Source of the DNA: Karstenula rhodostoma CBS 690.94
Taxonomy: Eukaryota > Ascomycota > Dothideomycetes > Pleosporales > Didymosphaeriaceae
NCBI GenBank assembly: GCA_010093485.1
Contig: MU001516.1
Coordinates: forward strand, 1 to 64,000
Reading direction: 5' to 3'
Length of the DNA: 64,000 nt
Below the pieces are notes generated by a model, which saw only the letters and a list, made by a program, of their open reading frames with translations, made no database searches and had not been told where the DNA came from. Of this stretch, positions 6,401-51,490 are shown piece by piece. Numbering within the stretch: position 1 is the stretch's first letter; each line of letters opens with the position of its first letter. Both the position numbers and the translations under genes were made by a program.

Positions 6401-8865
6401 TTTATATAAAACTCTATTAGTATATTTATAATAAACTTTATATTTTTAATAACTAAATTACTTCTTATTTATTTAATTTTAAGAAAGGTTTTTATTTTAA
6501 TTAAAAAATAAATATTAAATTTAATATAGTATAAATACCTTATTAACCTTTATATTTATTAAATATTACTAATTAATAATATTTATAAAAAGGTTTTTAA
6601 ATTAGTATTTATAAGTTTATTATTAAATTTAAAAGTGGGTAAATTAGGTATATATATTAGTATTCTATAGAGTAGTATATATATAAATAAGTAATAAAGA
6701 CTTATTTAAATACTAAATTATATAATAGTGTAGATACTAGATACTCTCTAGTATTTTAGTCTAGATATAAGTCTAGATATTAGGCTAGGTATTAGTCTAA
6801 ATATTAGTTTAGATATTAGTCTAAATATTAGACTATAACTATACTAAAAGCGATATAGGCGGTGGCACTTACCTATATATATTTTTCTCCTAGTTTTAAT
6901 AAGAACTATCCTTTTTAACGCCTTATTAACTCTCTATAGTTAGATTTCTTATATATTAGTAGGTACGCGCTAAGTCTATTTTAGATAGCTTAGCGCTATA
7001 CCCTTTTTAGTTAGCCTATATATAGATACTAGGTAAGCCTTAGCTACTTTTTTAGTCCCCCTTTATTTATATATTAGTAAAGTATAATATACCTTTTTAT
7101 CCCCCCTACTTTATTAAGTTACCCTACCTTATAGTAAATCTCTATAATATAACTATACTAATAAAATATAATTAAGTAATATAATATAGAAATTATATTA
7201 TATATTTAAGTAAAAAAGGGATATAGTAATAAAGATAGTATATAAATATATTTAAAAAACCTTTTAAATTTAGAAATATAGTATATTTAAATTAACTACT
7301 TTAATAATATAAATAAAGTAACTCTATACTCTAATTATATTATATACCTTAAATATATATTTTAGATAAATAGTATATTTAGAAATATCTATTTTTTTTT
7401 AAATTATAGAAATCTAGATATTTATAAATAAAATATTTATAGTTAGCTAAATAATAAAGCTTTTAAAATAATCTTTAAATATAAATAGAGTACTAGATAT
7501 AATATACTATAAAAAAATTAAATATAGTAGAATATACTATAAATAGAAATAGTTTTAAATAAATAAAGATTAAAATAGGTATTAGTCTAGATATTAGTAT
7601 ATATATTAGTCTAGGTATTAGTTTAGATATTAGTCTAGTTATTACTCTAAGTATTAAACTCTAAATATACTAATAAAGTATTATTAAATAGCTTATTATA
7701 GAAATTATAGTATATATTTAAAGAAAAAAAAGATATATTAATAAAGATAGTATATTAATTAATTCGTAAAAGTTTTTAAGTTTAGAAATATAGTATATTT
7801 AAATTATCTACTTTAAATATATTATATACCTTAAATATATATTTTAAATAAATAATATATTATAAAATATCTATTTTTTATAAATTATAGAAATATAGAT
7901 ATTTATAAATAAAATATTTATATTAAGCTAAATAATATAGTTTTTAAAGTAATTTTTAAATATAAATAAACTCCTAGGTATATTATACTATAAAAGTATT
8001 AAATATAATAGAATATACTATAAATATATATAGTTTTAAGTAAGTATAGGTTAAAAACAATTAAGGATAGTTAAGAGAATTAAACTATTAAATAAGTAAG
8101 TAATAAAAAGTACTATAATTTTTCTTTCTAATATAATTATTAGGTTAGTACTAATATAGTATTTTAATAAAAATCTAATATTAAATTTATTATTTTCTAT
8201 AAAGATAATTCTTAGTAGAACTCTATATTTTAATACTTTATAATTTTTTACTTAATTATCTAATTATAATAGTTTTTAGACTAAACTACTTATAGTTAGT
8301 AGTATAATTTAATAGTAATTTATAAATTTTTTTTTCTAAGTAGTTAACGTTTTTTAATATACTTAAAGATTTTAAAAAAACTTAGAAAGTTTAAATCTTA
8401 AATATCTCTATAAATATATAAGCTAGAACTATAATTTTTATACTATTAAGTAGGGCTTAAAGAGTAGATATATTTAGATTTTAAAGTACTTAAATATTTA
8501 AACTTCCTATTTAGGTAATTAAATCTTAGTGTTTATTTCTTTAAAACTAGAAATAGCTATAACTTAATTATTATTAAAGCTAGTTATATAATTTTTAGTT
8601 CTATTTAAAGAGAAACATTTACTTAGTAATTTTAATATTTTAGATTTCCTAATTAGGCCTAGTTTAGATATTCCTGGCCTAGATTAATATTATTATATCG
8701 TATTTTAAGAGCTAATTAAAACGCTTAAATAGCTTTTTTTTAGCTAATAAGAAGGCTTAAAAAAAGTATCCTAATTAGGTAATATATAGACCTAAGGTTT
8801 AGCTAGCTATATAGAAACTCTACTATAATAGTTTACTTCCTTACTATATTTATTATAAATAATAA
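6390..8865 (-). repeat. Long inverted repeat, right arm
   Basis: This is the inverted partner of 1,465-3,410. It is longer, partly because a 300-bp SR1 element is inserted at 6,848-7,147 and because a sub-segment (about 7,200-7,800) resembles a second, overlapping version of the adjacent 7,800-8,100 sequence. Both arms carry independent RIP mutations. Confidence 0.7.
6848..7147 (+). mobile_element. SR1 SINE-like element, 300-bp copy
   Basis: SR1 copies share a fixed 3' end (...TATAGTGAATCTCTATAA) and differ in where the 5' end is cut. This copy of about 300 bp is flanked by a perfect 14-bp target duplication TATAACTATACTAA (6,834-6,847 and 7,148-7,161). It still keeps unmutated GC-rich patches such as GCGATATAGGCGGTGGCAC near its 5' end. 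There are no terminal inverted repeats and no coding capacity. The long, variable target duplications and 5' truncation fit LINE-mobilised short retroposons. Strand is given with the constant end as the 3' end. Confidence 0.8.
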
Positions 8866-9684
8866 GTAGTTAGTAGTAAACTAATATATTCCTTAACTAC
8901 TCTAGATTTTAGAAATTTTTAATCTAATTTCTTATTTAGCTTTATTAACTTTATATACTAATTTAATATCTATACCTTATTACTTACTTTTAATTTTAGC
9001 TTAAGCCTCTTTTTATCCTAAAAAGCTTTCTAGTACTTTTAAATAGTTTCTAGCTTTTATTATATATTTATATAAATTTAGAAAAGTATTAAAGTAATTA
9101 TAAACCCTTTAGAACTTTTACTATTACTTAGTAGCTATTTAAGCTAATTAGGGTTAGATAGGTTATACCTAAAATAAACTTAATAAGAAGTATATCTAAT
9201 AGATATATATTTACTATTATTATATATAAACTTTACTAAAAAGATCTATATAGTCTAATTATTTTATTCTAAAGAATAAAAGATTTAAAAATATTATTTT
9301 AGTATTTAGTTCTATTATTTAGTCTACCTATCTATTTATAGATAGAAAGCTAATATTAAAATATATTAAAAGTTTAAATAGTAGTAAAAAGTATTTTAAT
9401 ACTTTAATTTTATAATTATATCTCTATTTAATAGTATAGTCTCTAGATTCCTATAAAGTCTAATAATTTTATAAATCTAAGCCTAAGCTAGATTAGTACT
9501 ATTCTAGTCTATTCTTATAGGTATATAATAAACTATCTTTAAAAAATAGTTAATAATAACTAAAATTATATTATATATAAGTCTAGTAAAGTAACTTAGA
9601 GGTAGATTAGTAATAAAATCTATTATAATATATTACTATAGTTAATTTAGAATATATAAAGGCTTAAAAGGGCTATATAGCTTA

Positions 9685-9818: not shown

Positions 9819-11070
9819 TATATAGCTTATATTTTTTTAAATTTACCTACTAGTAATACTTATAGTTATAGATATAGTTAAATATATTTTTAGTTATTTT
9901 AGTCTAGTAATACTTTTACTATATATACTCTAAAGTATAAAATATACTAAAGTATTTAAAAAGTAGGCTATTATAGTAGCTTTTAATTATATCTATTTAC
10001 TTTAAGAATATCTTAAGTTATATAGGGCTAGATTACTCTAAATAGGGCTAATATAGACTATTTTATACCTACTTATTCTTATTATTATCTAATAAGTCTA
10101 AACTTTTTACTTAAGCTCTTCTTAATTCTTAAATAGTAGAAACTTACTTAGAGTTTCCTTATTTATTTTATAAAAGTATTAAATTTAAACTTTTAGCTCT
10201 TAATTCTACTTTTACTTACTATATATATAAATAGTAATTACTAAGATAAATATTCTATTAATATCTTACTTAAATAATACTTTAGTAAATAGTTTAATAA
10301 AGGTTTTATTATTCTTATACTTTAATTTTTAAGTTATAAGTATATAATCTAGGTAATAAAATAGCCTATCTACTAGATTAATTAATTTAATTTAATATAT
10401 TATTATAAAATTATACTTAGAAAGGGTTAAATATAACTAAATATAATATACTATAAATATTTTAGTCTTTATAAACTATTATAGGTTATAGTAGTCTATT
10501 AGAACTTTAAAATATTAACTCTAGAAATACTAGTATTAGTATTTAACTACTTTTATAATTATAAGTAGTTTCTTATTATATATATTATAATAATACTATA
10601 CTATATTTAATTTTTATAAAAAAAAATTAATAGGCTACTATAAGCTCTTTCTATCCCTATTTAAAACTAGTTAGCTATAAATAGTATTAATTACCCCTTC
10701 TAAAGTATTAGTTTTAAAATATATCTATTTTTTATCCTTATAGTATATAAAAATAGGTACTATAAGAAATATATCCTTAAGCTTCTAAAATACTTTATAA
10801 TCCTTTAGTTTTAAGTCTAGTATTATACTCTTCTTCTTTTTTATTATTATACCTTATTTAGCGCTATTTAGACCCTTTTTAGTTAAAGTAGTTAAAAGTA
10901 GAGCTAAATAGAAGAAATTAGTAATAAACCTTCTATAGTAGTTTATAAAACTAATAAAGATATAGATATTATATATATAAATTAGTATTAGCTAAGACTA
11001 GATTACTTTAAAATAATTAGAATTAATTAATAAGCCTTTAGTAGTAATAATAAAGCCTAGATACTTAGTA

Positions 11071-11214
11071 GCCTATATATAGACGCTGGGTAAGCCTTAG
11101 CCGCTTTTTTAGTACCCCTTTATTTATATATTAGTAAAGTATAACGCACCTTTTTATCCCCCCTACTTTATTAAGTTACCCTACCTTATAGTGAATCTCT
11201 ATAATATATAATAT
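11071..11214 (+). mobile_element. SR1 SINE-like element between gypsy RT and RNase H
   Basis: This is a copy of about 144 bp, including a short AT-rich 3' tail, with the 10-bp target duplication ATACTTAGTA (11,061-11,070 and 11,215-11,224). It splits the gypsy reading frame exactly at the segment KYLGF. Removing the insert and one duplication restores continuity of the degraded frame, which confirms both boundaries. Confidence 0.85.
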
Positions 11215-13604: not shown

Positions 13605-14748
13605 AAGAGGTAATTAACTTAACTATTATTAATACTTTTTATACTAATTATATACTAATTAGTATTATTCTTTAGGAGATTCTAAAGCTTATAATATTTT
13701 TATTTATATAGTTATTTTTAAGTTAGTAGTTATAAAAATAGGACTCTTAATACTATAGCTTATAATACTATACCTTTTATAGGCTTAAAGATAGTTACTA
13801 AGTTCCCTACTTTAATATATTACTATATTATATTAATATATTAAAGTTTATTAGTATTTTTTTAGTTTTTAAGCTAGCTCTAGACTTTTTCTAAGTTATT
13901 AAAATAGCTACTAGCTATTTAGCTTATTCTAGATATATTTATTTCTAGTAGACTTAAATAGTTATAAAGTAGTACTATCTAATATTAACTAGTAAAAAGT
14001 ATTAGTAGTTATACTAATAAACTTATAATAGAAGAAGAAGAGGTAAGGTTTTCTCTTTTTTTTTTTAAATATATTTCTATTATTTAGCTCTTCTATATAA
14101 GTATTAGATAGTAAGAGATTATTAGTTATTATATCTAAATATATACTATTTAGAGTAAATAAAGCTAGACTACTTATAAATAAAAAAGAATAATTTAAAT
14201 ATTAGAATTCTAGTATTAGTAATATAGCTTTAACTTTAGAGATAGGTAAAAGGTATAGTATTAGATAGATAAATTACTACTAAATTCCTCTATTAGTATT
14301 TATAACTATATACCCTTTACTATTATATAACCTCTCTAGCTAGATATAAGGTACCTCTAGTTATAATAGATAATACTTATACTAATATACTTAGTTAATA
14401 AAAATAAAATATAGAAAATCTTAAAAATATATAATAAGATAACTAGTTTTAAGTCCTATTTAGTCGCTATTATTTTATACTATATATTAATACTAAATTA
14501 GTTTAAAAGTATATTAAGTACTAGATAAATACTATTATTATAATTTAGATAGTAAATATCTTAGTAATAGACCTAGATTTATTTATACTAATTAACTAGC
14601 TACTTAAGAAAAATAAAAGTTAATTTAACTCTAAATAATAAATACTACTAAATAGTTACTAAGTTAAGGATAACCTAGTTACTTACTACTAGTAGATAAC
14701 CTCTCTTTTATATTTTTTTTAAATTATAATATTATTAATATATAATAT

Positions 14749-14924
14749 ATTGTAGAGATTTACTATAAGGTAGGGTAACTTAATAAAGTAGGGGGAATAA
14801 AAAGGCATGTTATACTTTACTAATATATAAATAAAGGAAGACTAAAAAAGTAACTAAGGCGCGCCTAGTATCTATATATAGGCTAACTAAAAAGGGTATA
14901 GTACTAAGCTAGCTAAAATAGGCT
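14749..14924 (-). mobile_element. SR1 SINE-like element (first insert in RP1)
   Basis: This SR1 copy of about 176 bp lies in minus orientation with the 13-bp target duplication TAATATATAATAT (14,736-14,748 and 14,925-14,937). It is moderately RIP-mutated but retains AAGGCGCGCCTAG. Confidence 0.83.
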
Positions 14925-15017
14925 TAATATATAATATTCTTAATATTTCGCAACTTCTCTATAATTATATATTAAGTATTAGTAAATAAGGAGTATACTA
15001 CTCTACTAGTATTATAT

Positions 15018-15176
15018 TATAGAGATTCACTATAAGGTAGGGTAACTTAATAAAGTAGGGGGGATAAAAAGGCGCGTTGTGCTTTACTAATACACGAACA
15101 AAGGGGGACCAAAAAAGTGGCTAAGGCGCGCCCAGCGTCTGTGCGCAGGCTAACTAGAAAGGGCGTAGCGCCGTCT
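15018..15176 (-). mobile_element. SR1 SINE-like element, least mutated copy in the isochore
   Basis: This is a 159-bp SR1 copy with the 12-bp target duplication CTAGTATTATAT (15,006-15,017 and 15,177-15,188). It keeps long GC-rich stretches around 15,080-15,174, including GGCGCGCCCAGCGTCTGTGC, while its surroundings are saturated with C-to-T change. It is therefore a recent insertion that has hardly been mutated. Its sequence matches the copy in the SEC9 intron closely. Confidence 0.88.
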
Positions 15177-15409
15177 CTAGTATTATATAGTATTATAGTA
15201 TTATAGTATTACTATATTATATATTATATATAGGTAGGTTAATACTTAGTTAATTAAGTCTAATACTATAAGTATCCTTCTTTCTCTCTTATTATAAATA
15301 GTACTATTTTTTAGAGCTATTTAATAGAACTATATAGTATTTCTAGATATTTCCTTTTTACTAGGTAGTTATAATAGTAACTTTATATTAAAAAAAAAAA
15401 AAAAAAAAA

Positions 15410-15752: not shown

Positions 15753-17184
15753 AAAAAAAAAAAAGTAGATAGTTTCTATTCCCTATTATAAAATAATTAA
15801 TACTAGAAGTATAACTATCTTATTTATTTAGTAGATCTACTAATTTAGATATATACTAGAAACTATTATATTTAATTAAGGCCTCTAGTTTATTTCTACC
15901 TTCTAGTTTAAATTCTATTAAATTATAAGTATAAAAATTAAACTATCTACTATTTATTATAAAATAAAAATTAACTAAACTAAAATTATAAATAAGTATA
16001 TTAATTAATAGCTCTAACCCTTTATTAACTTCTATTAGAATAACTAAAGTACTCTATTACTTTTAATAAACTATATTTAGATAATATTATTTTATTCTAG
16101 TATTAAAATATCTTTTTACTAGATTCTATATAGATTTAAACACTAATAAAGTTAGGACTAGAAGTAAATACGCTAAATTAAAGTCTAAAATTTTAATATT
16201 ATAGAAGTCTATAAATTAGCTATTTAAATATATATAGTCTAGAAACTAGCTAAAGTATATATAGAAAAAGTTTAAAACTAGATATAAACTACTATTAATA
16301 AATACTATAAACTAAATAATTAGATAGTAAGAGATATAGTCTAATTTAATACCTAAAATTTTAAATAGCTTTACCTAAATTAAAAGCTATTTAATAAATA
16401 AAAAGGACTATTTAAAGTTCTAGAATAAGTAAGTTACTTATATTAACTATAACTACTTTTTAGATTAATAATTTAGAATATCTTTACCTTAGAATTACTA
16501 TTTAAGAATTTAAAAAAAAAAGTTTTAGAATAAAATTCTTCTAAACTATCTATAATTCCTATTAATAGAGTTAAAAAGTAGGAGGTAAAGGAAATTCTAG
16601 CTAGTAAATTTTATTTATAACTTTTAAAATACTAAGTAAAGTAAGTTAGTTATAATTTAGATTTAACTTAGTATTTTACTATAAATTCTTAGAACTTACT
16701 CTATAAGTTTTTAAAATTTTATAAATAGTATTTAAACTAACTTAGATTTCTAGAAGTACTAGCTAAATAGCTGAAAAAACTAGTAAAATAATTATATAGA
16801 AGATTTTAAGTTACTATAAGTTAATAAAATTAGAGAAGAAAATTAGAAATCTATAAATATAAAATAAAAGAAAAAAAAATCTATTTAAATTATATTTTAC
16901 TTCTCTTTATTAGACCTCTATAATATATTATTATTATTATCCACTAGTTTCTTATTTTTATTTTTTTTATAATTAGTTACTTTTTATACTTAACTCTTTT
17001 ATTTTTTAGCTTAAAACTACTAAATCCTTCTTTACCCCCTCCCCTATAGCTATTCTAATACTTAGCTAAGGTAGTAATATAAACTAAATTTATTTTTAGT
17101 ATTATTAAATTTTCTTTTACTTATTTATATAACTTTTACTATTTTAGCTAAGCCTAAAGTATATTACTTTATAGTTACTTATAT

Positions 17185-17318
17185 TATAGAGATTTACTAT
17201 AAGGTAGGGTAACTTAATAAAGTAGAGGTAATAAAAAGGTGTATTATACTTTACTAATATATAAATAAAGGGGGACTAGAAAAGTAGCTAAGGCGCGCCT
17301 AGTGTCTATATATATAAC
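17185..17318 (-). mobile_element. SR1 SINE-like element
   Basis: This SR1 copy of about 134 bp lies in minus orientation, with a 9-bp target duplication TACTTATAT (17,176-17,184 and 17,319-17,327). AAGGCGCGCCTAGTG is intact in an otherwise AT-only neighbourhood. Confidence 0.78.
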
Positions 17319-17779
17319 TACTTATATATTATTTTTTAATAGACCTAGATCTATATTTACTTATACTAATAGTATTTAATAAAAGATTTTAAACTCCTCC
17401 TCTATATATTCTAGTACCTATTTAAGTTAGATAATAAACTAAAACTATACTAAATAATATTTATAAATTTATAAGTCTTTTTTAATTTAATATAGTATTT
17501 ATACTTCTTAGAGTTTAGTATAAAGTTACTATCTATATTAAAACTATATATATAGTAGTATATATTAAATATATAGTAGAGTTAAAAAGTAGTTAGTAGA
17601 GTACTAAAAGAAGTATAGATAAGTATATTTAAAATTAAAACTATAATAACTATTACTAATAATAATACCTCTAATTCTAATTAGTACTTAACTTATAGAA
17701 AAGTTAAGAAAAGCTAAAAAAATAAAAAAGAGTAATAATAATTAGTTTAAATACTTATTAATATAACTTTATACTTCTA

Positions 17780-19005
17780 GTCTAGATTCTAATCCAGGCC
17801 TATAGGACTATATAGTATACTTATAATAAGAGAGAGACCTTTTTATCCTTTTTTAATACTTATTTATTTACTTTTAGACCTTTATTTATATAATTTAGAC
17901 CTTTTTTTTATATATTTTTATACTTTTTTAATTATTAGTATAATACTAACTATTATTTAAATACTAACTCTTCTACTTACTTATACTTACTAATATCCTT
18001 AATTTTTACCTATAGTATATAGCTTACCCTATTACTATTACTACTACTATTAATACTATTTACCTATTATTACTTACCTATTATTACTATTAATATTACC
18101 TATTACTTTTTACTTTATTTATTATTATAAGATAGCTATTACCTACTCTATATTTATTAACTATATAGGTTACTCTAACTTAATTATAATTACTTTTACT
18201 ATAAAGTCTAGCTCTTCTTAATTCTTAAAAATTATTATAATTATTTCTTACTACTTATATATAAAGTCCTTATTCTTAGTTAACTACTATAGTATTATTT
18301 TTATATAGTCTAGATTAGTAATATTATATTAGTAACACTATATATATATATATATAAGAAACTTACTAATAGACTCTATAATTATATAGTCTATAATTAT
18401 AACTTATAATATTTATATACTAGATTAATTATTATACTAATAGAGGTTAACTTACTAGATAATATATTAAATCTTATAATATATATAATTAGATATATCT
18501 AGGTTACTAATAGACTTACTACTAGTATATACTAGATTATATTTATTACTAAGAATTAGTTACTTACTATTATTAGCTATTTTAATAGAGTAAGATATAG
18601 TATAGATCTCTTCCTATAAGAGCTAGCCTTTATATATAATATTATAAATTACTTATTACTAGTAGGTAACCTCTTTTTTATATTCTTTTTTAAATTATAA
18701 TATTATTAATATTTTATAATATCCTTAATATTTTGTAACTTCTTTATAATTATATATTAGGTATTAGTAAATAAGGAGTATACTACCTTATTAGTATTAT
18801 ATAGTATTATAATATTATAGTATTATAGTATCGCTATATTATATAATATATATAGGTAAGTTAATATTTAGTTAATTAAGCCTAGTACTATAAGTGCCCT
18901 TCTTTCTCTCTTATTATAAATAGTACTATCTTTTAGAGCTATTTAATAGAACTATATAGTACCTCTAGATCTTTCCTTATTACTAGGTAGTTATAATAGC
19001 AGCTT

Positions 19006-19043
<38 letters not shown>
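17780..19043 (+). mobile_element. RP1 poly(A) retroposon, copy B (full length)
   Basis: A complete RP1 unit from the CTAGATTCTAATCCAGGCCT-like start to a poly(A) tail of about 30 residues. About 285 bases (18,050-18,336) are identical to copy E at about 39,163-39,447, although other copies differ there at many RIP sites. Confidence 0.8.
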
Positions 19044-21442: not shown

Positions 21443-21838
21443 AATTACTTAGTTACTATTTTATTTTTTTAAGTAATTAGTAATAGTAATTAGTAACTGA
21501 GTAATAGTAACTAAGTAATAGTAATTAAGTAATTACTTAGTAATACTATATAGTAATTACTTAGTTACTTAGTAATACTTAATTACTATTTTTTATAATA
21601 CTACTCTACTTTATTATAAGTATTAGTTATTAGTATCCCTAAATAGATAGTAATAAATAAGTATATTACTACTTATCTTAATTTATTATTAGTTAGGTTA
21701 ATTCAAAGGTATAAGTAATATATTAGTAAGCCTAAAACTATAAATATTATACTATTAAATAGAATTTATAGTATACTAGGGATAAGTATTTTAATTATAT
21801 TCTTTTTTTATATACTATTAATAACTAATAGAGTATAG

Positions 21839-22180
21839 GGTAGGAGAAAGTAATATAAGTAGTAGTACCTATCTATATATATAATCTTTTTAATTTTAAT
21901 AAAAATTTTTTTTTTTAATATTTTATTAACTCTCTATAGTTAAATTTCTTATATATTAGTAGGTATATACTAAATTTATTTTAGCTAGCCTTATACTAGT
22001 CCTATTTTAGATAGCTTAGTATTATACTATTTTTAGTTAGCCTATATATAGACGCTAAGTAAGTCTTAGCTATTTTTTTAGTTCCCCTTTATTTATATAT
22101 TAGTAAAGTATAATATACCTTTTTATCCCCTCTATTTTATTAAGTTACTCTACCTTATAGTAAATCTCTATAATATATAT
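21839..22180 (+). mobile_element. SR1 SINE-like element, longest copy (342 bp)
   Basis: This is the longest SR1 copy, flanked by the 11-bp target duplication ATAGAGTATAG (21,828-21,838 and 22,181-22,191). It extends the 5' side beyond the 300-bp copy and may be nearly full length. It is strongly RIP-mutated, so internal RNA polymerase III boxes cannot be judged from this copy. Confidence 0.8.
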
Positions 22181-24287: not shown

Positions 24288-25264
24288 TTATTATTTATAA
24301 TAAACAAAGTAAGGAAGTAAACTATTATAGTAAAGCTTCTATATAGCTAGCTAAACCTTAGGGCTATATATTACCTAATTAGAATAAAGGATTTTAGGCT
24401 TTCTATTAGCTAAAAAAAGGTGTTTTATATATTCTAATTAGTCCTTAAAATATAAAATAATAATATTTCCTTAAATACTAATATAACTAATATATTATCT
24501 ATAATTACTCTAGTTATAAAATATTAAACTTAGCTATATATTTCTAAATATTTATTTAGTATATAATTCTTCTTTAGGTATTAGTCTAGCCTAATACTAA
24601 CTAATACTTTAAAAACTTAAAACTTTTTTTTTAATTTAATTTAACTTTATCCCTTATTTATCCTTTTATTATAATATTATTATAATATTTAACTTTAACT
24701 ATACTTTTAGTAATTTTATACTATCTCTTTTATCTACTTTAACTTCCTCTAAAATATTTTATACCTATAGAATACTATCTATATTCTTTATTTCTATAGT
24801 ACTTCTTAATACTTTTTAATAGAGTAGAAGTCTTTCTAGTACTAAAGTACCTATTATATATAATATAGATATACTTATTTAGAATAATATTATAACTATA
24901 ATATATAAAATAAAATATAGATATCCTTTTTTATTATTATTTTAACTAATATTAATAGGGATTTATAGGCACTATTACCCCTTAAATTTACCTACTCTAA
25001 AGTTATAATACTATACCTTTTTATATTAAAAAGTATACTATTATCCTATATATCTTTACTAGTAAATCTACTATATACTACTATAGATACTATATAATAC
25101 TCTCTTTATAATATCTTACTTCTTTATTAGTATACCTTTTTTAAGTACTATATAATTATTATAGGATAGTATTAGTAGTATAAGAAATATTCTAATAATT
25201 TTAACTAAAAGTATATTTTTTTTTATAAAGTTCTAGAACTCTAGAAATAGACTAAGTAGTACTT

Positions 25265-26515
25265 CTAGCCTAGATCCTAATCCAGGCCTATAGGACTATA
25301 TAGTATACTTATAATAAGAGAGAGACCTTTTTATTCTTCTTTAATACTTATTTACTTACTTTTAGACTTTTATTTATATAATTTAGACTTTTTTTTTATA
25401 TATTTTTATACTTTTTTAATTATTAGTATAATACTAATTAATAGTTATTTAAATACTAACTCTTTTACTTATTTATACTTACTAATATTCTTAACTTTTA
25501 CCTATAGCTTATAGCTTACCCTATTACTATTACTATTACTATTAATACTACCTATTTATTATTATCTACCTATTATTACTATTAATATTACCTACTACTT
25601 TTTATTTTACTTACTACTATAGAGTAGCTATTACCTACTCTATATTTATTAATTATATAAGTTATTCTAACTTAATTATAATTATCTTTACTATAAAGTC
25701 TAGCTCCTTTTAGCCCTTAAGAACTATTATAATTATCTCTTACTATTTATATATAAAGTCCTTATTCTTAGCTAACTACTATAGTATTATCCCTATATAG
25801 TTTAGATTAGTAATATTATATTAGTAATACTATATATATATATATATAAGAAACTTACTAATAGACTCTATAATTATATAGTCTATAGCTATAACTTATA
25901 GTATTTATATACTAGATTAATTATTATACTAATAGAGGTTAACTTACTAGATAATATATTAGATCTTATAATATATATAATTAAATATATTTAGGTTACT
26001 AATAGACTTACTACTAGTATATACTAGATTATATTTATTATTAAGAATTAGTTACTTACTATTATTAGTTATTTTAATAGAGATATAGTATAGATCTCTT
26101 TCTATAAAAGCTAGCCTTTATATATAGTATTATAAGTTACTTATTACTAGTAGGTAACCTCTCTTTTATATTCTTTTTTAAATTATAATATTATTAATAT
26201 TTTATAATATCCTTAATATTTTATAACTTCTCTATAATTATATATTAGGTATTAGTAAATAAGGAGTATACTACTTTACTAGTATTATATAATATTATAG
26301 TATTATAGTATTACTATATTATATAATATATATAGGTAGATTAATACTTAGTTAATTAAGTCTAGTATTATAGGTACCCTTCTTTCTCTCTTATTATAAA
26401 TAGTATTATCCTTTAGAGCTATTTAATAGAACTATATAGTACCTCTAGATATTTCCTTATTACTAGATAGTTATAATAGTAGCTTTATATTAAAAAAAAA
26501 AAAAAAAAAAAAAAA
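25265..26515 (+). mobile_element. RP1 poly(A) retroposon, copy D (full length)
   Basis: This is a full RP1 unit of about 1.25 kb, including the tail. Possible target duplications are AGTACTTCT on the left and AGTATTTTT on the right, differing only by C-to-T. It appears to interrupt sequence upstream of the Helitron coding region. Confidence 0.78.
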
Positions 26516-29500
26516 TAGTATTTTTATAAGGCTAAGTAATTTAACTTTATTATAGAAGATATTATTCTCCCCTTTTTTTAAAATTATATAGATAATAGTA
26601 AATAAAAATATTTCCTCCTATAATAGATTATATTTCTAAATTAGTATAAAATAAACTTTTAAAGTAGATTAGTTATATATAGCCTTTTTTTTTTATATAT
26701 ATCCTTATCTAATACTTAGACTAATACCTACTTTATAGATATATTTTTATATTATACTATTTATTCTAGCTATATACTATCTCTCTATTAATTAGTAATA
26801 ATAGGCTAAGAATCTATACTACTCTACTATAAATATAGTTATCTACTTAATCTAGTTTTTAATATCTTTATAAATAGAAAACTAAAGAAATACTATATAT
26901 ATTATAAATAAAAATATTCTTTACTAATTTTTATTATATTTCTTTTTAAATACTATATTATTAGTAGGCTTATTAATACTATAACTTAACTATATTCTAT
27001 ACCTTATATTTTATTATCTTTATTAAGTCTTTTATAGCTCTTTACCCTAATAAGACTAACCTTATAAAGGTTATCTTAGAATAGCTATTATTTATTATAT
27101 AAGGCCTATTAAATCCCTCTTCTAATATTCTTTCCTAGGCTAAATATAATATAATTAATACTATATACTCTTTTATTATTATATATAGAGGATTTAGATA
27201 TAAGATCTATTTAATTTATAATAATATAAATACCTATCTAGCCTACTCCTATATCTCTAGGTCTATAAGTATAAAGTAAAATATTAGACTTTACCTCCTC
27301 TAATAGTCTTATACCTAATTATAGTAATAAAAGTAATAGAGATAAATTTAATAATAGAAACCTCTTTATAAAGGACTTTATAACTACTAAAGACTAAATA
27401 TATTAGTAAAATCCTTCTATTTAGTAATCTTTAGATCCTATAAACTTAGATTATTTATAGGAACCTATACTTCTACCTAAAGAATTAAACTATATATTAG
27501 TATTCTATTAGAAGTTTAAAAATATTTAAATAAATACTTATTTTATTTATAATTACTAGTAGTTTAATCTCTATATTATTTAGGGAGAGTATAATAAGTA
27601 CTACTAGAATTAAATAAAAAATAATAAACTAGATTTTATTCTATTATATAAAAATAGAAATAATATAAATCTAAAGCCTTTATCTTTATTATTACTACTT
27701 CTTACTAATATAGAAGAATACCTACTTACTTAGATCTAAGTTACTATAGAGATATATATCTATAAGGGGGCCTAATACTATTATTATAACTATATTTATA
27801 ACTTTACTATTAATATAGTAATACCTTTTTTTTAACTTTTATAGTTTCCTTAAGAGGTTAAGATTATTATTCTAAAGCCTACTTAAATTAAGAAGAATAA
27901 TCTAAATTAGATTAATTACTAATTTTAAAAGAACTATTATATATATTATTTTATTATATAGTAGTAGCTTTTATTCTTAATTACCTATTATTCTAGTTAC
28001 TAAAATATTATTATTAACTATAAAGCTTTTATATCCTTTCCTATTAATAGTTTTATTAAGTAGTAATTAGAGGTCCTTTATTTTAGTTCTAAAGACTCTA
28101 GTTTTAGTTAAATAACTAATATTATATTTAATACTTCTTTTAGCTAGTAATTTTAGTTTTTAAATATAGGTAATATATTACCTAGTACTACTTCTATATA
28201 AAGAGAAGATAAGAGTATATATAATAGTAATAAAGAAACTAGTACTAAAAATAATATATATAAAAATAAAAATAAGCCTCTAAAGGTTTTAGCTATACTT
28301 AATTTAAATATAGCTACTTTTAAGTTTAAATTTTTTTAAAACTAAATTTATTCTTATATTAGCTATATTTACCTCTCTATAAAAGCTATTTATTTAATAC
28401 TAATTACTAAGTTTACTAAAAGTATTTACTATTTAAGTTTTATATTTCTTTTACTATACTTTACTAGTATAGGTAATTATAATAAGCTTTATCTATAAGA
28501 AGTTAATTTTATTACCTATATATATTACCTTTTTTATTATAAAAATAGATATTTTACTTACTATCCTTAATTTTAATTTATTCTATTTAATATAATAATA
28601 TAGAAGGTATTTATAATATAGGCTAGTTTTATAGCTAGATAAAGTATTAATAGTCTTCTATTATAGGCTAAGGATATTTAGACTACCTTTTTAGAGTCTA
28701 TTTAAAAAGTATTACTAATTAACTCTATTATTTATATAGGTGTCTAGCTCTAAGGAATATAGCTATACTAGTAATAAAAAGATAGGAAGCTTAATACTAT
28801 AATAAGTTATTATAATTTTAACTATCTAATACCTACCTAATACTTTCTAGATTAAGTAATTAAAAATTTTTATTTTATTTATTACTTTCTCTACTACTAA
28901 TAATTTTTAGTATAATCTCCTTTAATTTATACTATAATTTAAAGAGTAGTAGGTAGTAACTTTAAATATATAAAGAAAATTTATTTAAAACTTTTTAAAA
29001 GAATATTCTTATATTATAGCTTACTATTTCTATATTTAATTTACTATATTTAAAAAGTATATTCTTATCCCTCTTTTTAATATTTAGAACTTTTAGGATT
29101 ACTATAAATAGTAACGGTATAGGAGTACCTATAACTATAGACTCTACTATATTAGTAATACTCTAAATTTAAACTTAGAATTAGGTCCTTTAGTTATAGA
29201 GACTAATATTAAATACTTAGCCTAATACTAGTTTAATACTATTTTAGTAACCTATTCTAATCTAATATAATCTAATAATACTATTATTTTAATTAATACT
29301 ATAATACTATTATTACTTCTTTTTATAGAAATAAAATTTAATAACTAAGAACTATTATTAATTTTTACTTAGTATTATATATACTAATATATTTCTAATT
29401 ACTATCTTTAGAAGAATACTATTATAAGAGAGAATATCTATAGGTTTAGGGCTTTTTAGCTTATTTATTTATACTCTACTTTTATTATTCCCCCTAGAAA

Positions 29501-37709: not shown

Positions 37710-38519
37710 TAAGAAACTTATTAATAAACTTTATAATTATATAGTTTATAGTATACTAGATAAGCCTTAGCCGCTTTTTTAGTCCCCCTTTATTTATATA
37801 TTAGTAAAGTATAATATACCTTTTTATCCCCCTTACTTTATTAATTTACCCACCCTTATAGTAATTATATATAATATATATATATAGTTTATAGCTATAA
37901 TTTATAGTATCTATCTATTAGATTAATTATACTAATAGAGGTTAACTTACTAAAGGATATATTTAACCTTATAGAGGTTTATATTATTTAGATTTATACT
38001 ATATATAGAATTAGTACTATTAGTATATATAAGGTTATATTTATTACTAATAATTAGTTACTTATTATTATTAGCTATTTTAATAGAGATATTTTAATAT
38101 TAGTTTTTTTTTATAATAGCTAGCTTTTATATATAATACTATAAGTTACTTACTATTAGTAGGTAATCTTTCTTTTATTTTATTTTTTAAATTATAATAT
38201 TATTAATATATAATATCTTTAATATTTTATAATATCTTTAATATTTTATAACTTTTTTATAATTATATATTAGGTATTAGTAAATAAGAAGTATACTACT
38301 CTACTAGTATTATATAGTATTATAATATTATAATATTATTATATTATATAATATATATAGATAGGTTAATACTTAGTTAATTAAGTTTAATACTATAGGT
38401 ATCCTTTTTTCTCTTTTATTATAAATAGTACTATTCTTTAGAGCTATTTAATAGAACTATATAGTATTTTAAAATATTTCTTTATTACTAGATAGCTATA
38501 ATAGTAACTTTATATTAAA
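37710..38519 (+). mobile_element. RP1 retroposon, truncated copy H without poly(A), carrying SR1
   Basis: This RP1 segment starts at the AAGAAACTTA landmark and ends with CTTTATATTAAAG, lacking the long A tail seen elsewhere. It is interrupted by SR1 at 37,752-37,880. Confidence 0.72.
37752..37880 (+). mobile_element. SR1 SINE-like element inside RP1 copy H
   Basis: This SR1 copy of about 129 bp is flanked by the 14-bp target duplication TATATAGTTTATAG (37,738-37,751 and 37,881-37,894). Its 3' end is slightly rearranged with an AT-rich tail. Confidence 0.8.
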
Positions 38520-38878
38520 GTTTTATTCTATTTTAAATTCTAATTATAGAGCTTATAGGGTAATATATAAAAAATAAAAAATAAAAAAAAAATAAAAAAT
38601 AAAAATAGTAGTAACTATATAAAATTAGTATTTAAAAATAGAGTATTAAAGATATATAGTATATTTAATTATAAAATACTAAGTATAGGAGCTTAGTATT
38701 ATATTAATAGTAGAATAAGATAATAAGAATTATAATATAAAATTAACTAGTATTTAGCTATAATTAGTAGCTTTTAATAGATCTTAATAACTAGTTCTAG
38801 AGAAAGATAGTAATTAAATAAACTTAATTTAGTAAAGTAAGAATTCTAAATAAATAAATAAAGAGGTAACTAACTACT

Positions 38879-40112
38879 CTAGTCTAGATTCTAATCTAGG
38901 CCTATAGAACTATATAGTATACTTATAATAAGAGAAAGACCTTTTTATCCTTCTTTAATACTTATTTACTTACTTTTAGACCTTTATTTATATAATTTAG
39001 ACCTTTTTTTTTATATATTTTTATATTTTTTTAATTATTAGTATAATACTAACTAATAGTTATTTAAATACTAATTCTTCTATTTATTTATACTTATTAA
39101 TATCCTTAACTTTTATTTATAGCTTATAGCTTACCCTATTACTATTACTATTACTATTAATACTATTTACCTATTATTACTTACCTATTATTACTATTAA
39201 TATTACCTATTACTTTTTACTTTATTTATTATTATAAGATAGCTATTACCTACTCTATATTTATTAACTATATAGGTTACTCTAACTTAATTATAATTAC
39301 TTTTACTATAAAGTCTAGCTCTTCTTAATTCTTAAAAATTATTATAATTATTTCTTACTACTTATATATAAAGTCCTTATTCTTAGTTAACTACTATAGT
39401 ATTATTTTTATATAGTCTAGATTAGTAATATTATATTAGTAATACTATATATATATATATATAAGAAACTTACTAATAGACTCTATAATTATATAATCTA
39501 TAGCTATAACTTATAGTATTTATATACTAGATTAATTATTATACTAATAAAAGTTAACTTATTAGATAATATATTAGATTTTATAATATATATAATTAGA
39601 TATATTTAGGTTACTAATAGATTTATTACTAGTATATACTAAATTATATTTATTACTAAGAATTAGTTACTTATTATTATTAGTTATTTTAATAGAGTAA
39701 AATATAGTATAAGTCTTTTTCTATAAAAGCTAGCCTTTATATATAGTATTATAAGTTACTTACTACTAGTAAGTAACCTCTTTTTTATATTCTTTTTTAA
39801 ATTATAATATTATTAATATTTTATAATATCTTTAATATTTTATAACTTCTCTATAATTATATATTAAATATTAGTAAATAAGGAGTATACTACCCTACTA
39901 GTATTATATAGTATTATAGTATTATAGTATTATAGTATTACTATATTATATAATATATATAAATAAGTTAATACTTAGTTAATTAAGTCTAGTACTATAG
40001 ATACCCTTCTTTCTTTCTTATTATAAATAGTACTATTCTTTAAAGCTATTTAATAGAATTATATAGTACCTCTAGATTTTTTCTTATTACTAGATAGTTA
40101 TAATAGAAGTTT

Positions 40113-40149
<37 letters not shown>
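38879..40149 (+). mobile_element. RP1 poly(A) retroposon, copy E (full length)
   Basis: A complete RP1 unit with a poly(A) tail of about 30 residues, close to the isochore edge. It shares about 285 identical bases with copy B (18,050-18,336). Confidence 0.8.
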
Positions 40150-40151
<2 letters not shown>

Positions 40152-42141: not shown

Positions 42142-42209
42142 GGTCGCTAGATTTTTTTGTTCCCTAACGGGCTTCCAAGCTCGGCACTTGAGGTAGCAGA
42201 GAGTTCTGG

Positions 42210-42666: not shown

Positions 42667-42676
42667 AGAGTTCTGG

Positions 42677-46033: not shown

Positions 46034-49000
46034 TTACAAAACGAGCTTGAACGTAGCAACCTCAAACGCTCTGATACCAATCTTCGCGCCCTTCTTTCCA
46101 GCCACCTCCGTCATGACAATCTCCTTCTCGCCCTCTATATCGTCCTCGAGCGCATTGACCTTGACCACTTTTTTGACGTGCAAATTTCCCCAAGTGAGCA
46201 CGGCTTTGCTCTTTCCGCCCAGCGCATCGTAGATGCGAACGACGACGGACTGTCCTTTCTTGACAGGCAGCTCGCCGCGCGAGACGTCCTCGTCGTCTTC
46301 GCCACGTTTGATGGTGTCGAGGACGAGATTCGGCGCACCGTGGATCTGGAAGGAGTGCAACAGAGAGGGATTGGAGCTGGCCTTACGGCCCACGATGCGA
46401 AGTGGGTTGTTGAACTCGAAGGCCTTGCGGACGGTAGCTTCGTTCAGGGGCCCGGTGTGAGGGAAAATAGCGTAGCGGGTGCGATGGCGGCCCATGTCGG
46501 CGTGTGCATCTGGAGCCTTGGGTGCGCGGAGAAGCGACAGCCTCATGACGTTTCCTGCGGTTGCGAAACCGAATTTCGAGTCGTTGAGGATGGAGACACC
46601 GTATGTAGCTTCCGAGAGATCGGCCCATTTGTGGACACAGACCTCGAACTTTGCCATGTCCCAGGTTGTGTTATAGTGGGTTGGGCGGCGGACGATACCG
46701 AATTGTGTCTCGTAGCTGGCTTCCGTGTTGACAATATCGACTGGGAACTCCACCTTGAGGAACTTCATCGTTTCCTGCCATTCGATTTCTGCGTCGATCT
46801 CCACACTTGTTGGGGTGTCGCCGATCGCTGCAGGCAAAGATATGGTGGTCTTTATCCACGACTTATCCGATATCTTAGTTTCTACGTCGAGCGACACACG
46901 ATGGGGACCATCCTCTGAGATGACCACCTTAGATGGGGGCAACTCCTGGCGCGAGTCAAGATGGTAGACCTCCACGTCCCAAGCTTGCCAATACAACGGC
47001 TTATCGTCGAACAACACAAGTTGCGCCGCTTTTGCGCCCTTTGGAATGATTTCGCGATCGGCTTTGATATCGTACAGCGATGTGATGGCGCCGTTGGACA
47101 CCTCAACCACGAACTGGGAGTTGCGAAGCTCAAACACGTTTGGTCGGATCTCCTTGACCGATGAAGTGGCAGCGGAGTATGACGAGGCGAGAGGGCGAAC
47201 TTCCAAGGCGCTCAAACTACTTCCATGAGCGAGACCATACGTTGGAAGACCAGCAACCGGCGGAAGCGTCACAAGTTCTGTTCTTGTCCAAGGAAGAGTG
47301 TTCAAAGCAAAAAGTTCGCTGTCATGTTTGACGTCCTGATCGAAGCCAAGTTCCGACAGTGCATCCGAAAGTAACTTCTCACCAGTGGCAAACACTTTAG
47401 CATAGATCTGAGTCGGGTCAGCATGACTTGATACGACGCAAAGAGCGCGGCACTTACTTCATCCGAATCACGGTAGCACATCTCGATCGAGCTACCAGGC
47501 AGGCAATCATGGAACTGGCATAACAGGACGCCTTCCCACATGTCATCCAAGTCCTTCTTTGGGTACCTGTACGAGCTCTTCTTAACGAACGCATTTTGTA
47601 CTGTGGCAAGCGTTGCCAGATACTCAATATCTCTTAGCATGATCTCAGACTTTCGGTTATTGCGCTTGTTGTTCGCTTGCGTAGTGTATGTTCCACGATG
47701 TAGCTCAAAGTAGAGCTCGCCGTACCAGGTTACGAGTTGGTGACCCTTCTCGACCCTTTTCTCGAGCTTGTCGAACCAATCATCAGCGGAGTCGCCAAGT
47801 TTGACGCGTGGCAAGCGACCACCCTTGTTATCACTCATTCCGCGGCATCGTCGAAGTCTTTCGAGCATTTCCCAGGTGGGGCCACCTCCTCCATCCCCCT
47901 TGCCAAAAACGAGGAGCGAAGTGTTGTCTCGGTCAAGAGACTTGTGCTGTGTGACACTCCTCTTAACATCGCCAAAGTGTGCTTCAGCAGTGTAAGTCTC
48001 GCAGGGCGGCATGTGACAAAGGACCTGGCTGTTATCGAGAGCTACCCAGTTGAATGTGGTATGCGGGAAGTTGTTGATGTTGTTCCAGCTGAGCTTCTGT
48101 GTCAAGAATCGCGTCATACCAGAAATGCGACAGATCTGAGGAAGCTGCGTAGAGTAACCGAACGTATCCGGGAGCCAGAAGGTCTTGCATCGCTGTCCGA
48201 AACGACTCTCGAAGTACCGTTGGCCGTAGAGGAACTGCCTGATCAAAGACTCTCCACCCGGGAGGTTGGTATCATGCTCTACCCAGCTCCCTCCAATGGG
48301 CTGGAAAGAGCCCTCCTTGACCTTCTTCTTAACGCGGTCGAAGGTCGACGGGTATAGTTGCTCCAGCCACTTGTACTGCTGAGCCTGTGAACAGACGAAA
48401 CGTAGCTCGGGATATCGATCAATGAGGTCGCATTGGTTCGACCAGGAGCGGGCGACCTTGCGCTTGGTCTCGGCGAAGGGCCACAGCCAGCATGTATCAA
48501 TGTGGCAATAGCCGATGCCGGTAACAAGAGCTTCATTGTCGGTCTCGTAGACTTTGTGCGAGTCGACATCGCCGAGATACTCGCGCGCGATCTTGCGGCC
48601 TTCGAGTATGCTCTCCTGGCTTCCACCACCGGCAATGAAAGCATTTATGATGCGATTGCAGACCTGCTGCGCCTCGTGCTTTTCGACCGAGTCATCTGGG
48701 AACTCCCTCGCTGCATCGCCCAGCTCCCAGAAGTCGTAGCGCAGAGCTCGTGCTTCCAGGTTGATGGCTTGAATCTCGACTACGTTCAGACGGAAGGACC
48801 TGTTTGGGTCTGGCGGCTGGATGGAGCCGCCGTTGCCATTGCCGAACATGCCGTTGCAGGCAACCTCGACGTAGAAGGTATGCTCCTTGCCGTCCCTAAA
48901 TGCGTCGGGAAGGATCCATTCGGTGCGCTCGCCGCCGCCGGTGAGGCCGTGAACGACGTCACCGTGTTCGGTCCATATCATGCCCTCGCAGTCGGCGTCC

Positions 49001-49427
49001 CATTTGAACTCGAGGTGCTCGTACTCCAAGAATTCTTTGGGGACGGTGAGCTGGATCTTGACCCAGTGCGTCGACCAGCCGGGGCCGAACCAATGGCCGG
49101 GGACGATTGGTTTGAAGTCGTGCGAGACGGCGTCGCTGAAGGCCGGGCGCGCGAGGTTGGGCGGAGAGTAGACGGACAGCTTGAACGGGCCCGGGTTCGC
49201 GCCGACTTTAGCATACACGATCTTGCTGCATCGCGTCAGTGCGAAGGGACGTGGAATTGGGAAGCAGAAGCACCGTACGGCAAGAGGCCCTGACCGTAGT
49301 ACTGCCCGCCGTCGGTGAACTGGCCCAGGCGGTCGCGGTAGATGCGGTCGATGTGCTTGCCCACGGGACCAGCCGCGAGCGTGGGGTAGTCGGAAGACAC
49401 GGGGACGACGCGCTGTTGGCCGCCCAT
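46034..49427 (-). CDS. AMS1: Vacuolar alpha-mannosidase (GH38)
   Basis: Three exons (49,279-49,427; 47,458-49,225; 46,034-47,407) encode about 1,096 residues, matching the 1,083 of yeast Ams1. Introns are 53 and 50 bp; the first uses GTACGG and the second GTAAGT. The enzyme removes alpha-mannose from free oligosaccharides in the vacuole. The N-terminal GPVGKHIDRIYRDRL is typical of Ams1. The GH38 zinc/active-site motif is HIDTCWLWPF (about residues 291-300), with Cys where I expect Ala. The nucleophile Asp is in FWLPDTFGYS (about D403), and a further zinc-site His is in CQFHDCLPGSS. The beta-sandwich C-terminal half is complete. There is no signal peptide, consistent with delivery by the Cvt/autophagy route. 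The start ATG follows a (GTGCAG)n leader repeat. Confidence 0.93.
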
Positions 49428-49460
49428 GATGAAGTGTTACAAGGTGGCGTGCGTGTTGAG

Positions 49461-49493
49461 GTGCAGGTGCAGGTGCAGGTGCAGGTGCAGGTG
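49461..49493 (-). repeat. Hexanucleotide repeat in the AMS1 5' leader
   Basis: Five GTGCAG units plus GTG on the plus strand (CACCTG repeats in the mRNA sense) lie 34 bases upstream of the AMS1 start codon. A related degenerate repeat precedes the SEC9 start. Confidence 0.8.
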
Positions 49494-49920
49494 GAGCTGG
49501 AGCGGGAGCAAGCTGGAGCTCCGGGCCCTTGCATGAGCTGCCTATCTATTATACACCAAGTAAGCTGGGGCCCCGCATAGGCTGCCGGCCCTAGTAGCTA
49601 GTAGCCCACCTGACCTGGCCACCCGCCCACCATTGTGATTGCAATTCATTCGTCCACGCGCAATTGCCCTCGACCGACTGACAGATGCGCATCGTCTCGG
49701 TCACGGTGATTTGTTTTGCATTCTCCACAGAACATGGCGCTTCTGTCTGCTCTGTACCAGGGCAATCCATTCTCTATACAAGGTACTCCAATCCACGAGC
49801 ATGTGGAGACCATCCAACGCCGGACCGAATTTATCAACACTGCAAGGAAATTGATCAACACTGTAAAACATCCCAATCCAACCCTCTAGGCGTCCAAGAT
49901 ACCGAGTGCCGTGCTCGATT
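49494..49920. other. Intergenic region between AMS1 start and SEC9 stop
   Basis: About 430 bp hold the AMS1 promoter side and the SEC9 3' side. No further gene or repeat was seen. Confidence 0.6.
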
Positions 49921-51490
49921 TTAGCGGATGCGGTCCAGACGCGCCCTATTCATGGCGACCTGGTCATCCACCTTGTCCGTCTTTTGCGTGATACGATCGA
50001 TGTGTTTGTTTTGAGTGTCAACCTCTTGGCCCATGGCTCTGCCAAGAGCATTCAACCGCTTCGCCGCCCCGTGAAGCTGGTCCAAGTTGTTGTCAATTTC
50101 GTTTTCTGTCCAGTGTAAGCATGCCTGCCGTGTTCCGTCTCAACAGAAAGCACCACCACTCACCCATCTCGTCATCCTCACTATCAGCCTCGAACTGGTA
50201 CTTTGCGCGGTCGGCTAGCGTCGATTTGCCGCCCGTGTTTCCGGCGCCCTGCACGCCTCTCTTGTACTCGTCTTGCCTTGCCGAACTCTGCCATGCGGCC
50301 GCACGCGTGGCATCTCTCTGAGCACGCTCGTTCTACGACTGTTAGCCGAAACCTGAATGCATTCGCTCAAAGACTAGCTCACCTGGTGGTTTTCCATGAT
50401 CTTGCGGTCTCTATCCTCGCGTCGTGAATTGCTGGTGAAAGGGTTGGACACGTGCACCGCAAACATGCTGCGGTTAAGCGTTTTCAATTCACGTGCCTTC
50501 TCTTCTGCAATCCGATTTTGCGAAGATGCGACTGTCTTGTTGTTAGTAACCACCTCATATTGTAGATAATCACTATGAGGTAGGGTGGTTCGATCAAGTA
50601 GGGGGGACAAGAAGGTGTTGTGCTTTGCCAAGCAAAGGGACCAAAAAGCGGCTAAGGCGCGCCCAGCGTCTGTGCGCAGGCTATAACCCTCATTGCGCGA
50701 AAAAGTACGTACGGTCCAAGTTGCGTTCTGTATTATGGATCCTCTCTGGATTCGACTGTCAGTGGACTATCGTTACAGCTGGCAAACGGCGGAACATACC
50801 TCCTTGGGCTCCGAGGCGGGCAAGGGTATCACGACCAGTCTCCTCGGCCTGTTGCGCGAGCCTCAGCGCATTGCGCGTGCTGGAAACATCCTGCTGCTTC
50901 ATGAACTTGATTTCGTTCTTGGTGGCTGTGATGTCCTCTTCTTCTTGCTCCTCTGCAGTCAATTGGCGATCCTCATACGCCGGTCCACTACCATAGCCTC
51001 CTGGCGCTCCGTATCCACCACCAGAAACGCCCGACGGGCCGTAGGAGCCGCCTCCTGGCTGTCCATAGCCGCCATCCTGCTGAGGTGGCTGTTGCTGTTG
51101 CTGTTGCTGTGGTGCCTTCTGCTGTCTCTGGGCTGCCCCTCCAAACAGGGCAGAGCGGTCCTCGTCGAGGTTTGGGTCCGAGTTGCCCAGGCCACCGTAG
51201 CCGCCAGCGCGACGAGGAGCACCCTGATCTGCACCTCCGCCGTACTGGTTGCCGCCGTAGCCGCCGGATGCACCATAGCTGCCAGAGCCAGAGCCAGAGC
51301 TTTGATAGCCACGGCCTCCGAACTGTGCGCCCTGGCCCGTCACAGCGGGGGTTTTCTCTTGGCGGAACGAGTCGTTGCCTCTCTGGTAGGCTGGAGGCGG
51401 TGCATTCGCATACGGATCGTTCTTAGCGGGCGCAGCGTAGGGGTTGGCTCCCGCATCGGTTTCCTTGTTCTTCTTTTTAAAGAGCCCCAT
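49921..51490 (-). CDS. SEC9: t-SNARE Sec9 / SNAP-25 family, five exons
   Basis: Exons 50,800-51,490; 50,713-50,745 (33 nt); 50,383-50,531; 50,164-50,332; 49,921-50,105 encode about 408 residues. All phases agree, and intron 2 ends TACTAAC...ACAG. The protein supplies the Qb and Qc helices of the plasma-membrane SNARE complex for exocytosis. The N-terminus is Gly/Tyr/Gln-rich and probably disordered (about 50-180), including a run of seven Gln. The Qb SNARE motif follows (about 190-265, including EIKFMKQQDVSSTRNALRLA and ERIHNTERNLD). The Qc motif ends the protein (ENEIDNNLDQL...IDRITQKTDKVDDQVAMNRA). No transmembrane segment or Cys cluster is present, as in yeast Sec9. Introns 1, 3 and 4 are 50-58 bp, but intron 2 is 181 bp because an SR1 element is inserted. 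Confidence 0.93.
50563..50683 (-). mobile_element. SR1 SINE-like element inside SEC9 intron 2
   Basis: These 121 bases match the SR1 copy at 15,018-15,176 almost end to end. The GCTAAGGCGCGCCCAGCGTC and CTGTGCGCAGGCTA segments are identical. The differences are largely C or G here against T or A in the isochore, so this copy is close to the unmutated state. It lies in the sense direction of SEC9, between the GTACGT donor and the TACTAAC branch site, leaving splice signals intact. Imperfect flanking repeats (TAACCACCTCATATTG at 50,547-50,562 and TAACCCTCATTG at 50,684-50,695) probably are a decayed target duplication. Confidence 0.88.

Follow-up and report, generated by a model that had tools for sequence, protein, structure and literature searches.

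SR1, a repeat family of Karstenula rhodostoma, very probably consists of processed retrocopies of one spliced, intron-dense RNA

Long interspersed nuclear elements (LINEs) of the mammalian L1 type make processed pseudogenes, or retrocopies, and the short interspersed nuclear elements (SINEs) named in fungi include Mg-SINE, Foxy, Nrs1 and Egh24. The accessible part of one report describes AfuSINE2/3 of Aspergillus fumigatus as tRNA- or 5S-related elements of 140-493 bp, with RNA polymerase III (Pol III) promoter features in the tRNA-related ones (PMC5063351). Here we describe SR1, a repeat family found in a 64,000-nucleotide stretch of Karstenula rhodostoma CBS 690.94 (the window: contig MU001516.1 of assembly GCA_010093485.1, positions 1 to 64,000). 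A reading made from the letters of the window, the sequence-only reading, had taken SR1 for a family of SINE-like retroposons. SR1 does behave as a LINE-mobilised retroposon, yet, judged from its sequence, it is a processed-retrocopy family of one spliced RNA.

SR1 elements resemble L1-type processed retrocopies in that they reproduce a spliced RNA without introns, carry target duplications and show 5′ truncation; unlike them, they have one apparently non-coding source, number in the hundreds, lack poly(A) and live in a fungus with repeat-induced point mutation (RIP). The literature searched, which leaves many journals outside its coverage, yielded no fungal case of such a family and no precedent for intron-dense sources or for shielding from RIP by introns. 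With the AfuSINEs, SR1 shares non-autonomy, short target duplications (4-14 bp in tRNA-related AfuSINEs) and occurrence also in gene-rich regions; it differs from them, as the accessible part of that report describes them, in having no tRNA or 5S relation and no Pol III promoter and in deriving from a spliced gene (PMC5063351). In Blumeria hordei, long noncoding RNAs antisense to transposable elements are spliced at sites opposite a coding frame, and the SR1 source likewise has its splice sites on the strand opposite a gene-like frame; in the accessible part of that paper the Blumeria RNAs are not reported as templates of retrocopy families, and that fungus is without RIP (PMC10648671). RIP is thought to kill repeats in fungi such as Karstenula; the SR1 family nonetheless reached hundreds of copies.

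The genome, of which the window is part, comprises 44.3 Mb in 29 contigs. A RIP-tolerant pattern for the SR1 tail had 394 exact matches in it, compared with none for the reversed control, and three DNA searches returned 40-44 matches each (the best 40 of 228-608 candidates scored). The sequence-only reading had put the length of copies at up to 342 bp, but long copies share sequence upstream of this limit. With a query reaching 496 nt further upstream, the matches to most complete copies start close to a single point, within about 20 nt of it (query 481-500), and three loci extend to query 367-428, in AT-rich flank. The flanks of 38 copies that begin at this common 5′ end are unlike one another. 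A 447-nt query from the common 5′ end gave 40 primary matches, all from query positions 1-9 (best 40 of 137 candidates), which means that these 40 copies are not 5′-truncated and says nothing on where homology ends. Complete copies are about 1.3 kb long (35 were measured at 1,141-1,335 bp), so the 342-bp limit fails for the family; the other copies are 5′-truncated fragments. A majority and RIP-reverted consensus of 20 mutated copies held no frame of more than 50 aa, a result now superseded by the un-mutated source.

We searched for that source with a RIP-tolerant pattern for the 5′ end, in which TA was allowed as CA, TG or CG, with one mismatch, because the mutated copies are nearly free of CpA. 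The pattern occurs at eight places genome-wide, and its control at none. Places on contigs C2 and C23 have un-mutated 5′ ends and are mutated further on, with un-mutated patches kept on C23. At C26:107,975, an un-mutated SR1 5′ end is followed 2.2 kb downstream, on the same strand, by an un-mutated SR1 3′ end. This locus (L126; C26:105,756-107,995, minus strand, 54% G+C) consists of 16 exons of 23-161 bp and 15 GT-AG introns of 48-131 bp, and the introns are absent from the copies.

Five copies were mapped to the C26 locus by a RIP-aware alignment, in which C>T and G>A were scored lightly and long gaps were allowed on the source side. Copy L043 aligned over 1,301 positions, with 871 identities, 429 RIP-type differences (C>T/G>A) and one other difference. 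Copy L042 has two non-RIP differences over the same number of positions, and the more diverged L060, L057 and L055 have 17, 25 and 80. L043 and L042 lack all 15 introns, and in the three diverged copies the gaps lie at the same places or are shifted. Ten of the introns are GT-AG as aligned, and four become so once their boundaries are moved by 2-3 nt; the remaining one, intron 4, borders a variable 7-bp repeat and had to be positioned manually. A branch-point-like motif is present in 12 of the 15. The exon 15/16 junction is crossed precisely, free of RIP ambiguity, by un-mutated copies L081, L096, L100 and L105, the four for which it was displayed among 15 un-mutated copies starting before it. 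Since complete copies match the exons of the source without its 15 introns, we read SR1 as processed retrocopies of a spliced, apparently non-coding transcript. An intron-bearing un-mutated query led to no second intron-bearing un-mutated locus (16 matches from nine candidates). We hold it very probable that SR1 copies derive, as processed retrocopies, from a single spliced RNA of the C26 source, with RIP shielding by introns.

In keeping with the sequence-only reading, which saw no coding region, the spliced un-mutated source has no sense open reading frame above 121 aa. A CCCTAACCC string in one source intron brought telomerase RNA to mind and was judged to be chance. The complement of the spliced form does hold a gene-like frame of 196 aa, which would be sensible if an intronless 1.3-kb form had once been functional and if that form, rather than the C26 gene, were the ancestral mobile element, with the C26 copy gaining its 15 introns later in a burst. 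But the 15 introns have no similarity to one another, and they would need to have arisen with only one or two exon changes. The C26 flanks share only 5 bp, so the locus is not itself a retrocopy with a target duplication, and the same arrangement is seen in a second family, RP1, described below. We consider an intronless ancestor improbable.

The 15 spliceosomal introns of the source point to a transcript of RNA polymerase II (Pol II). A consensus scan found no pair of Pol III A and B boxes in the first 300 nt of the source, in the whole source or in the spliced RNA. Similarity to tRNA, 5S or 7SL RNA was absent by Rfam at nine loci, seven of them holding SR1, and by ARAGORN on the source. A classical SINE, that is, a LINE-moved Pol III transcript from tRNA, 5S or 7SL RNA, would account for short copies, target duplications and 5′ truncation, and the last two are indeed present in SR1 copies; with these negative scans, a complete unit of about 1.3 kb and a source of 15 introns, we give that reading almost no credence. 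The word SINE thus fits the movement of SR1 and not its nature. Some other fungal repeats called SINEs may likewise be spliced retrocopies whose sources are yet to be found.

SR1 target duplications vary in length, and many are of 8-15 bp. Among un-mutated copies, 17 of 29 are flanked by duplications of at least 8 bp, compared with 4.3% after exchange of 3′ flanks between copies; the figures are 20 of 26 compared with 14.6% for mutated complete copies, and 26 of 43 compared with 10.3% for mutated truncated ones. One of the un-mutated copies may be L095, the last exon of the source itself. The duplications of those 17 un-mutated copies start with TA (9), AT (7) or AC (1). Together with 5′ truncation, these varied, mostly TA- or AT-starting duplications point to LINE-type insertion, and the RNA-mediated mobilisation by a LINE that had been proposed for SR1 agrees with them and with the fixed 3′ end. 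A miniature inverted-repeat element or other DNA-transposon derivative, with terminal inverted repeats and duplications of fixed length, was rejected on the varied duplications, the variable 5′ ends and the spliced source.

The copies end at CTACAATATA (CAATATA). The earlier statement that the tail is not poly(A) was borne out, since none of the 35 un-mutated 3′ ends listed, the source's included, carries poly(A); SR1 is hence a variant of the processed retrocopy, or its RNA is one without poly(A). Three stretches at the 3′ end folded no better than shuffles. At the other end, 15 of 27 complete copies have at least two G before the first templated C, where the source has one. The extra G fits copying of a cap, which is only suggestive. 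We propose that a Pol II transcript from the C26 source would be capped and spliced, and that the spliced RNA would be used in trans by a LINE reverse transcriptase; cutting by the LINE at TA-rich sites would let the AUAUA end of the RNA (...CUACAAUAUA) prime on the target by pairing.

The window holds a neighbouring, poly(A)-tailed family, RP1, whose copies there, with their relatives, are also spliced retrocopies:

Window 17,775-19,025: RP1 copy
Window 25,262-26,520: RP1 copy
Window 38,876-40,135: RP1 copy

The RP1 source (L073/L108; C20:806,100-810,200) is un-mutated and adjoins a LINE reading frame. It has 15 exons (29-126 bp by adjusted boundaries) and 14 introns of 45-67 bp that are GT-AG within 3 nt. 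All three window copies tested differ from it by only 1-2 non-RIP changes in 1,230-1,241 bp. The C20 locus has no poly(A) tract, which an insertion should show and a source should not. A place on C4 was considered as a further RP1-type source and dropped, as only a 78-bp block matched. RP1 resembles SR1 in its spliced retrocopies and in a source that is rich in introns, un-mutated and close to a LINE; it differs in its poly(A) tail, its C20 source with 14 introns and its sequence, which has no significant similarity to SR1 in either the spliced form or the introns. A specialist would hardly expect two unrelated families of the same window to have sources of about 15 tiny exons each.

A search with PF14529 found three LINE endonucleases in the genome, and one reverse-transcriptase protein query, from C20, gave six matches at four LINE loci, which are different from one another and little mutated:

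C4:2,655k: LINE locus
C20:810k: LINE locus
C26:110-114k: LINE locus
C17:1,031k: LINE locus

A homologue search gave the C20 reverse transcriptase one close relative (57% identity) and many distant proteins that carry LINE domains; it is therefore a LINE enzyme. The C26 and C20 LINE frames look interrupted, perhaps by introns. Among the six matches of the C20 query there were no heavily mutated copies of the four LINEs, though the adjoining retrocopies number hundreds. A broader search for reverse-transcriptase domains gave 105 matches, mostly of about 360-486 nt with several stops, and these were provisionally taken for enzymes of the long-terminal-repeat type.

Each source sits near one of the four LINE loci: the SR1 source lies about 1.6 kb from the C26 LINE, head to head, and the RP1 source adjoins the C20 LINE. 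By a rough estimate, such placement is unlikely to arise by chance in 44 Mb. Along with the fixed 3′ end and variable 5′ end, it could be taken to mean that SR1 is merely the 3′ end of a LINE, the short copies being 5′-truncated LINEs. Complete copies, though, stop at a common 5′ end about 1.3 kb upstream, and the 3′ regions of the four LINEs show no similarity to SR1 above shuffles, so we judge this very improbable. The last 60 and 220 nt of SR1 were compared with the 3′ regions of all four loci and the 5′ regions of three; the best case, the C26 5′ region, was equalled by 5 of 100 shuffles, and none was accepted as similar. The sequence-only reading had proposed to look for a 3′ tail common to SR1 and a LINE; no such tail was seen at the C4, C20, C26 and C17 loci, and a lost or undetected LINE is possible.

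RIP changed 158 of 158 CpA, 227 of 240 CpG, 28 of 169 CpC and 16 of 163 CpT in copy L043, and the C26 source has a (CA+TG)/(AC+GT) ratio of 1.08. To relate mutation to length, we took 104 distinct copies with a 3′ end, from 123 copies in the sequence collected, and called a copy un-mutated when its G+C exceeded 0.45. None of the 51 copies of at least 260 bp is un-mutated, compared with 32 of the 53 copies below that length; L095, the last exon of the source itself, is among them. The longest un-mutated copy observed is 240 bp, in a sample biased by an un-mutated query that supplied the short un-mutated copies (best 40 of 267 candidates), so that a long un-mutated copy elsewhere is possible; among the places fetched, the 5′-end pattern led to none besides C26. 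The source itself is un-mutated, although it has hundreds of copies. None of its exons exceeds 161 bp, the length of the longest, and the register is shifted by an intron after each exon, so the introns probably hold homology below the RIP threshold. Copies longer than about 250 bp would be destroyed by RIP, while the source would survive, its homology with the copies split into blocks of at most 161 bp, and would keep emitting copies.

That the source is intact because its introns keep homology short is the best reading, not proof. It would explain how a repeat family outlives RIP, and it predicts that homology cut by introns protects a gene. The dead copies would then form a "fossil record", each keeping the spliced RNA of its time. 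Alternatively, SR1 could consist of spliced retrocopies whose source escaped RIP by timing, chromatin or chance. Only one SR1 source is known, GC-rich surroundings and the strength of RIP in this fungus could matter, and one long copy in GC-rich surroundings, L049, is just partly mutated. But most of L049 is mutated all the same (G+C 0.30), each known source is dense in introns and has small exons (at most 161 bp in SR1 and about 129 bp in RP1), and no un-mutated copy above 240 bp was observed; we regard an escape unrelated to introns as unlikely, if by no means negligible. Going further, RIP fungi may have evolved a selfish kind of retroposon gene that would form a new class, with the SR1 and RP1 sources as its examples. 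Such "master" genes would be non-coding, dense in introns (15 and 14 in about 2 kb) and placed beside single-copy LINE genes, and their introns would serve as armour, keeping homology below the recognition length of RIP while long copies are destroyed. We offer this tentatively, with somewhat more doubt than belief.

Several points weigh against all or part of this account. The copies were sampled with chosen queries, 40 of 137-608 candidates being scored, which makes the proportions those of a sample and not of the genome. That the SR1 RNA is transcribed and capped, and where its 3′ end lies, is inferred from DNA. Some copies have no clear duplication: 12 of 29 un-mutated copies have less than 8 bp, as do the window copies at 50,563 and 21,604. 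The LINE comparison above gave no shared tail. The long copies L025/L049 on C23 are only partly mutated and keep un-mutated patches. For closely placed repeats in Neurospora, a RIP minimum of 155 bp has been reported, and the last exon of the source, at 161 bp, is just above it; RIP might also still detect stretches of homology of exon size with introns between them. Lastly, the gene-like antisense frame is left unexplained by the retrocopy model.

That frame lies at 352-940 of the complement of the spliced SR1 RNA and encodes 196 aa from an M. Its codon usage is gene-like (0.24 per codon; none of 500 simulated sequences scored as high), and its length is not very rare, as 49 of 2,000 simulated sequences had a frame of at least 256 aa. 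Indels common to at least three copies between spliced positions 390 and 870 are of 17 types, all multiples of 3 and several in trinucleotide repeats. Transversions in 350-870 show no codon-position bias (51/46/57 of 154). The frame has no Pfam match, and a search of the protein collection at E 0.001 gave no homologue; it has 90 genome matches, of which the stop-free ones are C26 exons only. The complement of RP1 has a weaker signal at roughly the corresponding position. Splicing of the SR1 introns in both directions was rejected, with one weak candidate among 15. By likeness to the Blumeria RNAs, as the accessible part of that paper describes them, the SR1 and RP1 sources may be antisense RNA genes, which is a lead only (PMC10648671).

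In the window, all nine SR1 copies named by the sequence-only reading were found and are related to one another. Gene-rich DNA holds one of them, and the other eight lie in an AT-rich isochore (positions 1-40,000, 13-22% G+C per 2-kb step). A further piece, at 38,528, was absent from the earlier list.

6847..7152, plus strand: SR1 retrocopy, spliced 998-1303, 5′-truncated; 14-bp repeat TATAACTATACTAA
9682..9822, plus strand: SR1 retrocopy, spliced 1162-1302; 11-bp target duplication TATATAGCTTA
11069..11208, plus strand: SR1 retrocopy, spliced 1163-1302; 11-bp duplication ATACTTAGTAG
14746..14933, minus strand: SR1 retrocopy, spliced 1115-1302, inside an RP1-like copy; repeat of 12 bp (14 by eye)
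15012..15173, minus strand: SR1 retrocopy, spliced 1142-1303, weakly RIP-mutated, in the same RP1-like copy as 14746..14933; 12-bp duplication
17179..17314, minus strand: SR1 retrocopy, spliced 1168-1303; 9-bp duplication ATATAAGTA
21604..22177, plus strand: SR1 retrocopy, spliced about 754-1302; contains the earlier start at 21,839
37752..37878, plus strand: SR1 retrocopy with a 3′ end variant, below the threshold of the copy table; 14-bp duplication TATATAGTTTATAG
38528..38883, minus strand: SR1 5′ piece, covering the first 346 nt of a complete copy, beside RP1 copies
50555..50683, minus strand: un-mutated SR1 3′ fragment, spliced 1163-1303, in gene-rich DNA; 6-bp direct repeat only

The fixed-end string GTGAATCTCTATA that had been given for the family is exact in only three of the nine copies, and the others carry C>T/G>A variants of the same end. 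Direct repeats, taken here as the longest exact match near the copy ends, had been described for eight copies; repeats of 9-14 bp are seen at seven, the copy at 50,563 has only 6 bp, and the repeat at 21,839 is internal. The copy there actually begins near 21,604 (spliced position about 754, giving about 570 bp), so the 11-bp repeat ATAGAGTATAG at 21,839 is internal sequence; it is also present in other long SR1 copies. The true start has no clear direct repeat (7 bp).

CpA is almost gone from the repeats of the 1-40,000 isochore, an unusually complete RIP. At window 14,690-15,260, two SR1 copies sit in one RP1-like copy, each with its own duplication, and the un-mutated RP1 source (L073) is uninterrupted at that place. 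The fragment at window 50,555-50,683 belongs to a subfamily (CAACACC...GATTATC) unlike the present C26 source, and therefore either the source changed over time or another source existed.

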